From NCBI GenBank assembly GCA_014859965.1, contig JACZKQ010000127.1, positions 1 through 64,000 on the forward strand: a stretch of DNA of 64,000 nt. The letters are read 5' to 3'. The DNA comes from Phycisphaerae bacterium (GTDB lineage: Bacteria > Planctomycetota > Phycisphaerae > Sedimentisphaerales > Anaerohalosphaeraceae). This document shows positions 1,767-46,921 of this stretch, in pieces. The notes under the pieces were generated by a model. The model saw only the letters and a list, made by a program, of their open reading frames with translations, ran no database searches and was not told where the DNA came from. A program made the position numbers and the translations under genes. Positions within the stretch are counted from its first letter, which is position 1. Each line of letters opens with the position of its first letter.

Positions 1767-1913
1767 CTATTGAGCAACGAGGAATTCCTGTTCGCCGCTT
1801 ACTGCACCAAGCAGGCCTTTGGTATCAAAGGTCACCACGATCTTAAACGTCTCTTCAGGTCCGGCCAGGTGCAGGTCGTTCGGTACTCGCCACGAGTACC
1901 CGCATGTGCCGCC
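1767..1913 (-). other. In-frame continuation of the preceding coding region beyond UGA
   Basis: Forty-eight sense codons and a UAG follow the UGA in the same frame. They encode GGTCGYSWRVPNDLHLAG, then PEETFKIVVTFDTKGLL, then GAVSGEQEFLVAQ. The alternating hydrophobic pattern of a beta strand pair (FKIVVTFDT) and the absence of stops suggest real coding sequence rather than 3' UTR. It has no start codon of its own with a Shine-Dalgarno. Confidence 0.6.
1882..1900 (-). promoter_or_regulatory. Candidate bacterial SECIS hairpin
   Basis: Reading the minus strand, a perfect 8-bp stem with a triloop (GGTACTCG-TGG-CGAGTACC) starts 13 nt after the in-frame UGA. The apical loop lies at nt 22-24 and has G as its second base. 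Known bacterial SECIS elements have a stem within about 15-40 nt 3' of the UGA and a G among the first loop bases, so the geometry fits. No selenocysteine machinery is visible in this window. Confidence 0.45.
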
Positions 1914-3308
1914 TCAGCCAAACGGCATCTTGCCCTCAGCGACGGTTTGGCCGACGGCATTGACGATTTTCACCTCCGGGTCGATCGAGGCGTACATCTG
2001 CATCTTTGTTCCGTCTGGGAGGGTCATTTCGTCCTGAGGCTTGCTCTTGTCCTCAAAAGACGAAATCATCACCCCTAAAGACGGGGAGTACAGCATTGCC
2101 TCGGCTTTGAATTGATCGCCCGGGCGATAACGCAGTAAGCCGGGCGTCGGAGAATTGAATTTAACCACGCAGTCTTTGCCCGGCGCGAGAGTGAAAGGTT
2201 TTTCATGGCGGATTTTGACCGCGTAAATGAGCGGCAGCGACGTTTGCTGGCCTGGACCGGCAATGTCGGCTGAAAGCCCATAACGGATTTTGTCGCTGTC
2301 GATGCCGAGGCGGATAGGTGCATAATCGCCGAGGGGCACGAGCTGCCGACCGTCCTGCGTGGGACAATCGCTCACATTGATCATCCTCTCCTTGTCCATG
2401 AGCAGCCCGAGAAAAATCTTGTCGCCGCCGGGGAGTTTCAGTTCGCCATACTGACCCGTATAAGGCCGGACGGTCAGCTTGTCGCCTGAAGGCGTGGCGG
2501 AAAACTCATAAAGCGTGTCGCCGAATTTGCGGATGGCCCCGAGACACGGCACCATGTCTTCTTTCTGATCAAAAATGAGAGCCGTCAGCTTACTGTCGAA
2601 GCGGCCGCTCACAGCCATGCCTTGGGCGAGGATCGCCTCTACCTGCTCCGTGCCCACCGTTATCGTTCCGCGGCGGCCGGTCGGAACGACGAACTTTGCG
2701 TGCTGATAATCGGACGAATAGCGCTGCAGCACGGGCATTATGTTAAAAACGGCGGGGCCGCTCTTGGGGAAAGTCGCGTTGACTTTGAGAGTGTCGAAAA
2801 AGGTGCTGTCCTGCGGGTCAGCGCCCTTGGGAGGTTCAGCCAGCCGTTTGGCGGGGGCGTCGTTGGTCAGGTCCAAGTCGCCGTTAAGGTCGAAGTACAG
2901 CGTGTCGTAACCCTTGCCTTCGCCCTGCGACTCGTCGACTGTAAAGTAACGCGTTACGGTGTCACCCGGGTTGAACAGGAAGTCGCCGAATGTGATCTTG
3001 CCGTAGAGGGGCTTGGCGGATTTGAGCTTCGGGCAGGCCTTGAGCGCCGCAAACGGCTCGTTTTGCAGTTCGTCGGCCCTCTGGCCGCCGGTAAGCTGAT
3101 AACCCAGGCTCCCCTCGTATTCATCTTCGAAGACAGAAAACTCCTGAAGGGCGAACTCCCCGGGGCCCTGCAATGGGGTTTGAACCAGTGGGGTTGATGG
3201 CCCGGTGGGCGGCTGTGAATGTTCCGCGGCCAAAAGCAGCGGCTGCAGGGCAAGTGCGCACATGCACAAAACAGAAATAAACGCCCGCTTTCCGATACAG
3301 TTGTACAT
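1914..3308 (-). CDS. Secreted planctomycete protein of unknown function, ending at an in-frame UGA (possible selenoprotein)
   Basis: A signal peptide (residues 1 to about 28, MYNCIGKRAFISVLCMCALA) precedes a long exported region of about 436 residues. It holds one recognisable element, the acidic EF-like stretch DTLYFDLNGDLDLTND near residue 135, seen in many uncharacterised planctomycete proteins. I do not recognise a catalytic fold. The frame does not look finished at the UGA (1916-1914). After ...EGKMPFG the same frame continues for 48 well-formed residues (GGTCGYSWRVPND... TFKIVVTFDTKGLLG) to a UAG at 1769-1767. A perfect hairpin sits 13 nt after the UGA. The full product would be 513 residues. 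Either UGA is decoded (selenocysteine replacing a Cys paired with the Cys four residues on) or this is a recent nonsense mutation. Confidence 0.75.
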   Translation of the reverse strand: MYNCIGKRAFISVLCMCALALQPLLLAAEHSQPPTGPSTPLVQTPLQGPGEFALQEFSVFEDEYEGSLGYQLTGGQRADELQNEPFAALKACPKLKSAKPLYGKITFGDFLFNPGDTVTRYFTVDESQGEGKGYDTLYFDLNGDLDLTNDAPAKRLAEPPKGADPQDSTFFDTLKVNATFPKSGPAVFNIMPVLQRYSSDYQHAKFVVPTGRRGTITVGTEQVEAILAQGMAVSGRFDSKLTALIFDQKEDMVPCLGAIRKFGDTLYEFSATPSGDKLTVRPYTGQYGELKLPGGDKIFLGLLMDKERMINVSDCPTQDGRQLVPLGDYAPIRLGIDSDKIRYGLSADIAGPGQQTSLPLIYAVKIRHEKPFTLAPGKDCVVKFNSPTPGLLRYRPGDQFKAEAMLYSPSLGVMISSFEDKSKPQDEMTLPDGTKMQMYASIDPEVKIVNAVGQTVAEGKMPFG

Positions 3309-43579: not shown

Positions 43580-45424
43580 TTATCGCGTCTCAGAATTGAT
43601 CCGGACGATCGTCATGCAGGGCAGCTTTTGACGGAGCTGCTGAATAGCTATTTGGGAGATCGGATGGGGGGAGCGGATTTCCAGCCACGACAGGGCGGGC
43701 ATGGATTCGAGATGGCGGAGGCCGGCGTCGGTGATGTGGCCGTCGATGATCAGGCGGTCGAGTTTCGGCAGGTGCGCAATCGCTGTCAACCCTTCGTCGG
43801 TAATGCCGTCACCGCCCAGGTTGATGAACTCCGCGTTTTTTAGCCCAGTCAAATGCGCAAGCCCCCGGTCCGTAATGCCCTCATGCGGCACCTGCAGGCG
43901 TCGCAGTTTCTTCAGATTCGCCATGTCCTTAATGTCGTCGTCCGTGAAGGGTTCGCGGACCACCTTGCCGCCCTCACGATGGCCGAGTGTGGAAATGATC
44001 AGGTCTTCCATGGCGGGCATGCCCGAAAGATCCATGCCTTTGTCATTCTGCCGGATATCGGTGATATGCAAGTGGCGGAGTTTGGGCAAGTGTAAAGGGC
44101 TCAGTCCATGCAGTGTACAGCTTCTGACATTGAACAGGGTCAGCATCTCGAGATTCCGCAGGCCGGACAGATGGGCGATGCCGCGGTCGGTCACCTTATT
44201 CTCCATGTGCGGCGCGATCATGAGCCCCAGGTCGGTGAGCCGGTGCATGGTGCCCACGATCTTCACGCCTTCATCGGTGAATTCTCCGCTGATGGTTAGC
44301 GATTCGAGCGGCAGGTCCCGAAGCATCACGAGCGTTTGGTCCGTGAGCTTGCTGTTCGTCCCTGCGCCCATCCACACGGACCTGAGCTTCTTCAACGCGG
44401 AAAGCGGCGCTATCTGGGCGTCCGTGTAGGGCTTGCCGCCAAGGTTCAATTCTTCAAGCGTCGTCATGCGCGCCAGCGTCGGGATGGATCGCGGGGTGAT
44501 CTCCGCACTGGCGATATCGAGCTTTTTGAGGTTCTTCATTTGAGCGAGATGGTCTACGCCGCGGTCGGTGATTTCCTTCATCCAGTGCGCGCCGATGGCC
44601 TCCAGCACGGGTGCTCGGCTTAGCGCCTGCAGGGCCGCGTCGCCGAAATGTTCGGTATTGACGTTGATGGTGCGCAAAGCCGGCATCGCCTGCACGTGAA
44701 CGAAACCTTCATCGGAAAACGGGCCCCCGATTATGAGGTATCGGACGGATCGAAGATGACGGAGGCTCTTGAGGCCTTCGTTGGTCAGCAGTTTGCCGGC
44801 GAGTTCCAGTTCCTCAAGTCGGTCCATGCCTTCGAACTGTGTAAGGCCGAGGTCTTTGATGTTAGTCTCGCCAAAGTACAGGCCCTTGAGGTTCGGAAAA
44901 ACATGAAGCAGCTTTACGGTCGAGTTGGTCGCCCCGGCGGGCAGGTAGATGCGTTCCAGATTCGTCATGCCTCGCAGCGACATCATCCCCTGTGTGGTGA
45001 CGGCCGAACCCCGCAGATTGATCACACGAAGGCCCGTCAAGTGGGCCAGGTGCTTCATGCACGAATCCATCGGTTTCGACTGGCCCGCGCTCCAGTCGCC
45101 GCTGAGAGTGAGCGAGTGGAAATCGTCCGGCCCGAAAGCCGACATAAACGAGGTGTCCTTCCAGCCGTCTTCGGAGACAATAAGCTGTACTCTCTTCGCT
45201 TCGGGAATTTTCACCTCGCCGATAGCCGGGCCCGCGTACTCCCAGTCGGCGCCGTCGATCCAGTAATGGAAACCTTTGACTTCTCTTTGCAGGCCGGCGT
45301 CCTGGATCATGACCTTGCCGACGCAGCGGTCGGCGGGAAAGCGGAAAACGCGTGCTTCGGGTCCCGCGGTTGCTGCGGCGACCGCCAGTGCGATAACCGC
45401 CGGAGTGATATATTTGCAAGCCAT
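43580..45424 (-). CDS. Secreted leucine-rich-repeat protein
   Basis: The 614-residue protein has a signal peptide (CKYITPAVIALAVAAATAG) and about 16 cysteine-containing-type leucine-rich repeats with the pattern ITDxGLxHLxxLxxLxxLxLxG (DRGVDHLAQMKNLKKLDIAS, TDEGLTAIAHLPKLDRLIIDG). Residues 25-120 before the repeats form an unassigned domain with EARVFRFPADRCVGKVMIQDAG. Such LRRs are very common in planctomycetes and serve in protein binding. Its start lies 39 bases after the second ECF sigma gene, so the two are probably one transcript. Confidence 0.85.
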   Translation of the reverse strand: MACKYITPAVIALAVAAATAGPEARVFRFPADRCVGKVMIQDAGLQREVKGFHYWIDGADWEYAGPAIGEVKIPEAKRVQLIVSEDGWKDTSFMSAFGPDDFHSLTLSGDWSAGQSKPMDSCMKHLAHLTGLRVINLRGSAVTTQGMMSLRGMTNLERIYLPAGATNSTVKLLHVFPNLKGLYFGETNIKDLGLTQFEGMDRLEELELAGKLLTNEGLKSLRHLRSVRYLIIGGPFSDEGFVHVQAMPALRTINVNTEHFGDAALQALSRAPVLEAIGAHWMKEITDRGVDHLAQMKNLKKLDIASAEITPRSIPTLARMTTLEELNLGGKPYTDAQIAPLSALKKLRSVWMGAGTNSKLTDQTLVMLRDLPLESLTISGEFTDEGVKIVGTMHRLTDLGLMIAPHMENKVTDRGIAHLSGLRNLEMLTLFNVRSCTLHGLSPLHLPKLRHLHITDIRQNDKGMDLSGMPAMEDLIISTLGHREGGKVVREPFTDDDIKDMANLKKLRRLQVPHEGITDRGLAHLTGLKNAEFINLGGDGITDEGLTAIAHLPKLDRLIIDGHITDAGLRHLESMPALSWLEIRSPHPISQIAIQQLRQKLPCMTIVRINSETR

Positions 45425-45463
45425 GTGTTCCTCCCGTTGTGGTTTTACGGTCGAGGGTCGTCG

Positions 45464-46921
45464 TCACATGCCGACCATCTTCCATTGGCCGTCGATTTCG
45501 ACAAGGGTGGCGTCGAGTTCGAACTTGTCGCCCGGTTTGAAAACCATATCGCCGAGCGTAAACTCCGTGTGTATGGTTGACAGCCATGACACGCCGAGTC
45601 CGTTTTGTTCGTTGGCGGTTCTTACGATTTCGACGGGCGGGCCGATCGATTTGAGAAGCATCCGCATCTGCACGTCTTCGATGTCCTGAGGGTCTTCCAT
45701 GATTCTGCGAATGTCTTCGATGTCGTCGGCGCCCTCGACAAAGCATTGGCTTATCCGTGCCATGTCACCGCTTGAGATGGCGTGAACAAAACTCGTAACG
45801 GTGCGATCGGGCGCGGTGAAGTCGGGTATGAACACGGCGCCCATCCCCATGCCGCCGAATCCCGGGCCGACGGCGGGGGCGACATTCGGAGCGACCGCCT
45901 GCATGCCGCCACCCATTGCGGCCGGGCCGGAAGGCTCTGCGAGGGGCGGCTGCGGCTCCATGGCGGGCTCTTCTTCCGTGCCTTGGCCGAAGAGCCATTT
46001 CTCGAACTCCTCATCGGTCATTGCGGTGGTGTCAACATCGGCTGTGCCGCCGGTATTCCGCACGGTCGGTTGGGCCTGTTGGGAAGGCGCATCTCTGACC
46101 ACTGCCACCGGCGGCTCGGCGCCGTTTTTGTGACTCATGTGGTTGTAGCCGATGATTCCACCAGTTCCGGCGATAACAACCGCCGCCGCAGCGATCAGTT
46201 TGGCGCTTGTGCCGGTCAGGGCCGAGGCCGCAACCGCCTTCACGCTACCGGCGCTGGCCACACCGGCGGCGGCCGCGCTCGAAGCCCCGCCTACCATCGC
46301 CATTTTGCCCAATTCCGTGAGCACGGCGGCGGGGGCGGCCTGCACGGCGTTCTCCGTGAGCAGGCCCGACAAGGCGGCTGCGGCTACGAGGATGCCGCGG
46401 GCGCGGAGTTTGTCGCGGAGCCGTTCGAGTCCGGCTTCGACACGGCGCGACACGGTCGGCTGAGAGAGGTTGCCGGCGGCGGCGATGTCGGACAGGGTCT
46501 TAGCGTGGAAGAAATGCTCGATGAGGATATGGCGGGTTTCGTCGTCGACCTCGTCGAGAGCCTCATCGACCCAGGGAGAGATGTCCTGCCATTTGCGGGT
46601 CTCCGTCCCGGGGCGCCGGGACCCGGCGGCGTACTGGGCCTCGCGGCTGCGGCGGGCACAATCGCGGCGGATGCGGTCGATGGCCTTGCGCGTGGCGACG
46701 CGATGCAGCCAGCCGCCGACTGAGCCGGTGATGTCGGAGGCGTGCTGAAGAAGGTCGAAAAACGTCTCTTGAGTCGCATCGGCGGCGCGGTCGGCGTCAG
46801 CGAGAACGCGGAGGGCGGCGCTGTAGACCATGCCCGCGTAGCGGGTGACGATCTCGGAGAAGGCCTCGGCGTCGCCGGTGCGGGCGAGACGCTGGAGCAG
46901 GACGGTTTCGCTTTCGGACAT
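45464..46921 (-). CDS. ECF sigma factor with transmembrane and C-terminal extension
   Basis: The 485-residue protein. Residues 1-175 are an ECF sigma factor: region 2 ETVLLQRLARTGDAEAFSEIVTRYAGMVYSAALRVL... ATQETFFDLL, region 4 LSDIAAAGNLSQPTVSRRVEAGLERLRDKLRARG. Instead of stopping, it continues through an Ala-rich segment with one hydrophobic helix (KLIAAAAVVIAGTGGIIGY near residue 240). Then follow a Pro/Gly/Met-rich linker and a C-terminal domain from about 370 (VTSFVHAISSGDMARISQCFVEG... DKFELDATLVEIDGQWKMVGM) that reads like an SnoaL/NTF2-type fold. It may be a membrane-tethered, self-regulated sigma factor (inference). Confidence 0.8.
   Translation of the reverse strand: MSESETVLLQRLARTGDAEAFSEIVTRYAGMVYSAALRVLADADRAADATQETFFDLLQHASDITGSVGGWLHRVATRKAIDRIRRDCARRSREAQYAAGSRRPGTETRKWQDISPWVDEALDEVDDETRHILIEHFFHAKTLSDIAAAGNLSQPTVSRRVEAGLERLRDKLRARGILVAAAALSGLLTENAVQAAPAAVLTELGKMAMVGGASSAAAAGVASAGSVKAVAASALTGTSAKLIAAAAVVIAGTGGIIGYNHMSHKNGAEPPVAVVRDAPSQQAQPTVRNTGGTADVDTTAMTDEEFEKWLFGQGTEEEPAMEPQPPLAEPSGPAAMGGGMQAVAPNVAPAVGPGFGGMGMGAVFIPDFTAPDRTVTSFVHAISSGDMARISQCFVEGADDIEDIRRIMEDPQDIEDVQMRMLLKSIGPPVEIVRTANEQNGLGVSWLSTIHTEFTLGDMVFKPGDKFELDATLVEIDGQWKMVGM

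Follow-up and report, generated by a model that had tools for sequence, protein, structure and literature searches.

The gene at positions 1767..3308 on the minus strand of the window (the whole 64,000-nucleotide stretch of planctomycete DNA that was analysed) very probably encodes an exported selenoprotein, in which an in-frame UGA is read as selenocysteine (Sec) at position 465 and an immunoglobulin (Ig)-like domain is thereby completed. This reading is favoured because the UGA and a UxxxC motif are conserved, a SECIS hairpin covaries, the Sec machinery is complete, the Sec-bearing module co-occurs with and is linked to selA and selB, and the domain is conserved past the UGA. The actual incorporation of selenium at position 465 is what we infer from these sequence comparisons. 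An earlier note on this DNA had proposed that a secreted planctomycete protein is a candidate new selenoprotein with a SECIS-like hairpin, and that proposal is supported by the conserved UGA, the Sec machinery and the covarying hairpin.

The selenoprotein CDS, translated with TGA as U, spans 513 residues. A 464-residue open reading frame (ORF; 3308..1917, minus strand) leads to the UGA at 1916..1914, and 48 sense codons then continue in an unbroken frame to a TAG stop at 1769..1767. Both the 48-residue extension and the sequence FG-UGA-GGTCGYSWRVP, with a Cys four residues on in a UxxxC pattern, had been pointed out in the earlier note and were borne out by translation. Sec465 (1914..1916, minus strand) lies in the context ...VAEGKMPFG-U-GGTCGYSWRVP..., where homologous modules show an aligned TGA and no Cys codon; its partner residue in the UxxxC motif, Cys469 (1902..1904, minus strand), is invariant in alignments A1, A2, and A3. 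At the N terminus, a putative signal sequence (about residues 1-28; 3225..3308, minus strand) was recognised by its basic start, hydrophobic core and AA-E cleavage-like site, and it forms a single helix (residues 8-25) in the AlphaFold2 model. The gene is flanked by a gene for a hemerythrin-domain protein before it and one for a right-handed beta-helix protein after it; these neighbours do not add to a functional guess about redox or metal chemistry.

If the UGA simply ended the gene, either as an ordinary stop or through a recent nonsense mutation, the 464-residue protein would be complete and its extension would be due to chance. TGA does serve as the stop of 15 of the 41 long ORFs in the window, open extensions of 20-77 codons past a TGA are common among the window's ORFs, and the energy of the hairpin that follows the UGA is not exceptional (41-nt fold z = -1.3, matched by 26 of 200 shuffles). 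In one sequence alone, the 48-codon extension together with the hairpin is not beyond chance. Because these single-sequence statistics are unremarkable, the UGA, the extension and the hairpin gain significance only through homologues. Another in-frame TGA of the window (45464..43580) was also considered and was rejected as ordinary, as it separates two adjacent genes. At 43580-46921 (minus strand), a sigma-70-like gene and then a leucine-rich-repeat gene lie in the same frame, with 627 open in-frame codons following the TGA.

A whole-protein search found relatives in 55 of 198 related genomes; the alignments had 30-42% identity, crossed exactly one TGA, and reached residues 508-512 in many full-length relatives. 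When module profile A1 was applied to 392 Planctomycetota genomes, 56 matches were obtained in 29 genomes, and 54 of these matches contained a single TGA; loci of other phyla led to 13 genomes in which all 33 matches carried one TGA each. TGA was also present in nearly all of the approximately 150 module matches listed. After removal of duplicates, at least 145 distinct modules had the UGA, the Cys four residues on and the flanking motif (F/Y)G-U-GGTC-x-Y-S-W-R-V-P, in which the core G-U-x-x-x-C was invariant and the Trp, Arg and Pro were nearly so. These modules came from Planctomycetota, Verrucomicrobiota, Lentisphaerota, Sumerlaeota (BRC1), Hydrogenedentota, and Riflebacteria, and occurred in long secreted, short anchored and lipoprotein-like architectures and with a C-terminal transmembrane half. 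The source genome alone contained 7 modules by profile A1 (at least 7 paralogues), and a search for phage homologues of the window protein found none. Moreover, when GTDB contigs were scanned with a DNA pattern allowing TGN at the Sec codon, every genuine coding match among those listed had TGA; the listed TGG, TGC and TGT matches all lay in non-coding or unrelated frames. Downstream of the hairpin the median dN/dS was 0.17, a value biased low because pairs were picked at 60% or greater protein identity, and purifying selection is indicated on the predicted sequence past the UGA. An ordinary stop is refuted by this conservation, since the identical UGA and downstream motif recur in several phyla, the sequence past the UGA is under purifying selection, and truncation would drop the final strands of the Ig domain; we regard it as extremely improbable. 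The recent nonsense change of a Cys, Trp or Ser codon, which the earlier note had offered as its competing idea, is excluded because the UGA is so widely conserved.

In three genomes (loci L057, L061, and L062 of G112, G114, and G150, respectively), several long Sec-module genes were found in tandem, and the arrays at L057 and L062 lay directly beside selB. These arrays suggest local gene amplification.

The earlier note had looked to homologues for Cys or Sec at the UGA column. The UGA itself, and conservation beyond it, were found there; a Cys was not, in any module from the 198 related genomes, the 392 Planctomycetota genomes, the 13 genomes of other phyla or the listed GTDB matches. Trp was likewise absent from this column in the homologues found. 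A new selenoprotein is usually supported by a pair of Cys and Sec homologues; such a pair is not a defining requirement. The non-Sec relics carried Gly (GGA) in L028 and Arg in L228, lacked both the U and the C in L043, or were rearranged (L222), and the hairpin was altered in at least L028. We interpret these four copies as decayed paralogues, in which Sec was never swapped for Cys. The absence of a Cys form is strong in the genomes sampled, a sampling that is not exhaustive. According to a 2025 study, Cys homologues now seem to exist for every known selenoprotein, and the method of that study may itself miss selenoproteins without them (PMC12013277). So large a family could have been overlooked because families without a Cys form may escape that method (PMC12013277), and it is also absent from a 2026 inventory. 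On balance we favour the view that this is a Sec-only superfamily, namely an Ig-fold module without a Cys counterpart that is portable, with its own selA/selB/selD cluster, across several phyla.

The bacterial SECIS hairpin (1882..1900, minus strand) was identified from the bSECIS constraints, compensatory changes and codon bias. It reads GGUACUCG-UGG-CGAGUACC from 1900 to 1882, and the perfect 8-bp stem with a TGG loop starting 13 nt past the UGA, as described in the earlier note, was recovered exactly. Its 3-nt loop lies 21 nt from the UGA and has a G at position 2, and its MFE is -13.8 kcal/mol. The bSECIS model calls for a loop of 3-9 nt, a stem of 4-16 bp, a G among the first two loop positions, a UGA-to-loop distance of 16-37 nt, and an MFE of -7.5 or lower (PMC13188914). 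The window hairpin lies within every one of these limits, in agreement with the loop position and G that the earlier note had judged to fit bacterial SECIS rules, and it covaries as well. Among 138 modules, stem pairs 1-6 were formed in at least 96%, and the first base of the Ser/Thr codon covaried without exception with the third base of the Arg codon (118 T-purine and 13 A-pyrimidine; 118/0 vs 0/13, p 3e-18). Across 44 distinct sequences, compensatory changes were observed at 6 base pairs (23 cells), which none of 500 shuffles reached, and the covariation signal was lost when partner columns were slid as a control.

Because the stem overlaps conserved codons, the hairpin might merely result from conservation of the peptide YSWRVP and not be an RNA element. 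The synonymous choices are too extreme for this: the hairpin Arg was CGA in 82% of cases, compared with 14% elsewhere in the same genes, and GTA (70% vs 11%) and TCG (85% vs 26%) were similarly biased. Moreover, pairing was kept despite amino-acid changes, as where S-L-S-W-R-E-P is encoded as GCUCUCG-UGG-CGAGAGC, and where the Arg was lost (L121 and L199) the stem re-formed in a different register. Together with the failure of the sliding controls, these observations leave a peptide by-product hardly any probability. The codon bias, covariation and register shifts argue that the hairpin is under selection as RNA.

The earlier note had suggested searching the genome for selA, selB, selC, and selD, and all were found on a single contig (C167) of the source genome: a tRNA-Sec with anticodon TCA (77 bits), SelB (360 bits), SelD (353 bits), and SelA (PF03841, E 1e-139). 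selA, selB, selD and the tRNA-Sec gene lie within about 14 kb, on the same contig as three module genes. The module and SelB occurred together in 50 of the 198 related genomes, the module only in 13, SelB only in 5, and neither in 130 (Fisher p 9e-29). tRNA-Sec or SelA was present in 7 of the 13 module-only metagenome-assembled genomes (MAGs), and the remaining module-only genomes may for this reason reflect MAG gaps. In 6 module genomes, SelA, SelB and a tRNA-Sec above about 47 bits were not found; these MAGs were an estimated 54-90% complete, and 2 consisted of single contigs. By our tally, no fewer than 31 of the 50 genomes with both had a module and selB on one contig and about 20 kb or less apart, often within a few kb. 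At L096 (2154-3434), a SelD whose N terminus is extended by a Cys-rich stretch (KLGHCVCDTKRPCPCDTFKEHNVCTCAGER) was found beside selA, selB and a module gene.

These distributions also bear on whether the UGA instead specifies a different amino acid (e.g., Trp or Cys by a near-cognate tRNA) or is reassigned genome-wide. Trp and Cys do occur in the flanks of the motif, and Sec-free read-through is possible in principle. However, many ordinary genes end in UGA, and the code is not reassigned in the source genome because UGA is a normal stop there; the distribution of the module follows that of SelB and tRNA-Sec, and module genes lie within selA/selB/selD clusters; and the column contains neither Trp nor Cys in any homologue. 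We consider decoding as another residue most unlikely, and Sec remains our preferred reading of position 465.

The Sec-bearing Ig-like domain (residues 377-513; 1770..2180, minus strand) was predicted to have a macroglobulin MG2-like fold by AlphaFold2 and structure comparison. The window protein was modelled with a pLDDT of 87 and a pTM of 0.80, and a short paralogue with a pLDDT of 94. In the model, Sec465 lies in a loop between two strands, and the final strands of the domain (471-474, 485-495, and 502-512) are all downstream of the UGA. Because these last three strands lie past it, a stop at the UGA would leave the sandwich incomplete; the predicted Ig domain is complete only with read-through. 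VIA comparison gave Z of about 9-10 over approximately 100 residues with the MG2 positions of bacterial alpha2M, C3, and C5, a range in which unrelated Ig-like folds also fall (8.6-10.3), and human alpha2M MG2 (2p9r) was aligned over 97 of 97 residues. Foldseek returned the same structure (E 4.6e-4, TMt 0.72). The one distant cellular match of the module profile, in G525, is a bacterial alpha2-macroglobulin-like MG2 domain and was rejected as a module homologue. The predicted fold of the Sec domain resembles that of PF01835, the MG2 domain of alpha-2-macroglobulins and complement; the module differs in carrying the Sec-GGTC loop, in being the terminal domain of proteins of 200-550 residues, and in falling below the Pfam cut-off: the window protein had no PF01835 match, and the best relative reached 15.2 bits against a gathering threshold of 32.8.

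Besides selA, selB and selD, the recurrent neighbours of the module were a class I methyltransferase (ArsM/DVU_1556-like), a double-cubane-cluster anaerobic reductase (NF040772, above cut-off) with a second HGD-D-type subunit, and an ABC import pair; a NapH-like membrane ferredoxin recurred beside the transmembrane form. On C167 (L052-L054), a selenium island at 20-45 kb contained selC, selD, selA, selB and three Sec-module genes, a methyltransferase, two HGD-D (double-cubane type) genes, a NapH-like ferredoxin, and a small protein that resembles a lipoprotein and carries the motif CPIMG...FCCAGCP. From the gene neighbourhood and the motif, we tentatively propose, at somewhat less than even chances, that Sec465 and Cys469 carry out redox or metal-site chemistry outside the cytoplasm. 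Alternatively, the loop could serve in detoxification or assimilation by binding a soft metal or metalloid (Hg, As, Se), instead of being a redox-active selenenylsulfide. The methyltransferase and double-cubane reductase would suit such a role, as would the neighbouring ABC binding protein, which weakly resembles SaoX of the Sec-rich SAO system, and most predicted Sec-ligand contacts involve metals (PMC13188914). No metal-binding family was matched, however, and the SaoX similarity is far under its cut-off (31 vs 300 bits); we consider this metal site rather unlikely.

Under the selenoprotein reading, SelB with Sec-tRNA(UCA) would bind the hairpin just past the UGA, and the ribosome would insert selenocysteine at position 465, completing a C-terminal macroglobulin-MG2-like Ig domain with a Sec-Gly-Gly-Thr-Cys loop. 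The window protein would be one of at least 7 paralogous modules in the source genome and part of a multi-phylum superfamily. Outside the cytoplasm, Sec465 and Cys469 may be joined reversibly as a selenenylsulfide or may make up a soft-metal(loid) site, either being served by the products of the NapH-like membrane ferredoxin, double-cubane reductase and methyltransferase genes, with electrons perhaps fed across the membrane to the exported Sec/Cys loop. The family is apparently undescribed; it is large and exported, has at least 7 copies in one genome, and spans at least 6 phylum-level groups. Annotation that treats the UGA as a stop would record its proteins as truncated hypotheticals. If confirmed, the family would make directly testable why Sec is irreplaceable somewhere, add an Ig/MG2-like scaffold to the selenoprotein folds, and point to a gene cluster centred on Sec, for which a substrate can be sought.

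Searches of the module against Pfam and NCBIfam gave no family match, a PDB sequence search gave no match, and no such motif is listed in the 119-family selenoprotein inventory of 2026, consistent with the view of the earlier note that the family is uncharacterised. The NCBIfam models credited to Haft & Tolstoy 2025 and Haft & Gwadz 2023 (PMC13188914 Table 1) belong to the library searched. Relative to these libraries and that inventory, the module likely represents a new family. One short paralogue matched OS_HP2 (NF041425) weakly across the Sec site (13.3 bits; cut-off, 100), and no module member matched NF041425; the link was rejected as chance, a better match lying elsewhere in the genome. 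A sub-threshold OS_HP2-like match without a UGA (53 bits) was seen in the source genome at contig C114, 24905-25195 (L072). TsoA (LULAXC motif, NF045695), from a multi-selenoprotein operon (PMC13188914 Table 1), has the same UxxxC spacing as the module and is likewise clustered with other selenoproteins, but its motif residues differ, and an NCBIfam scan that included NF045695 gave no match. With the UxxC/CxxU thioredoxin-like selenoproteins (Trx, Prx-like, and DsbA-like; PMC13188914 Table 1), the module shares Sec that depends on SelB and a SECIS, a Cys close by and, likely, redox chemistry outside the cytoplasm; it differs from them in having no Cys counterpart found and no Pfam or NCBIfam match, and in placing Sec and Cys in UxxxC spacing on a predicted Ig/MG2-like fold.
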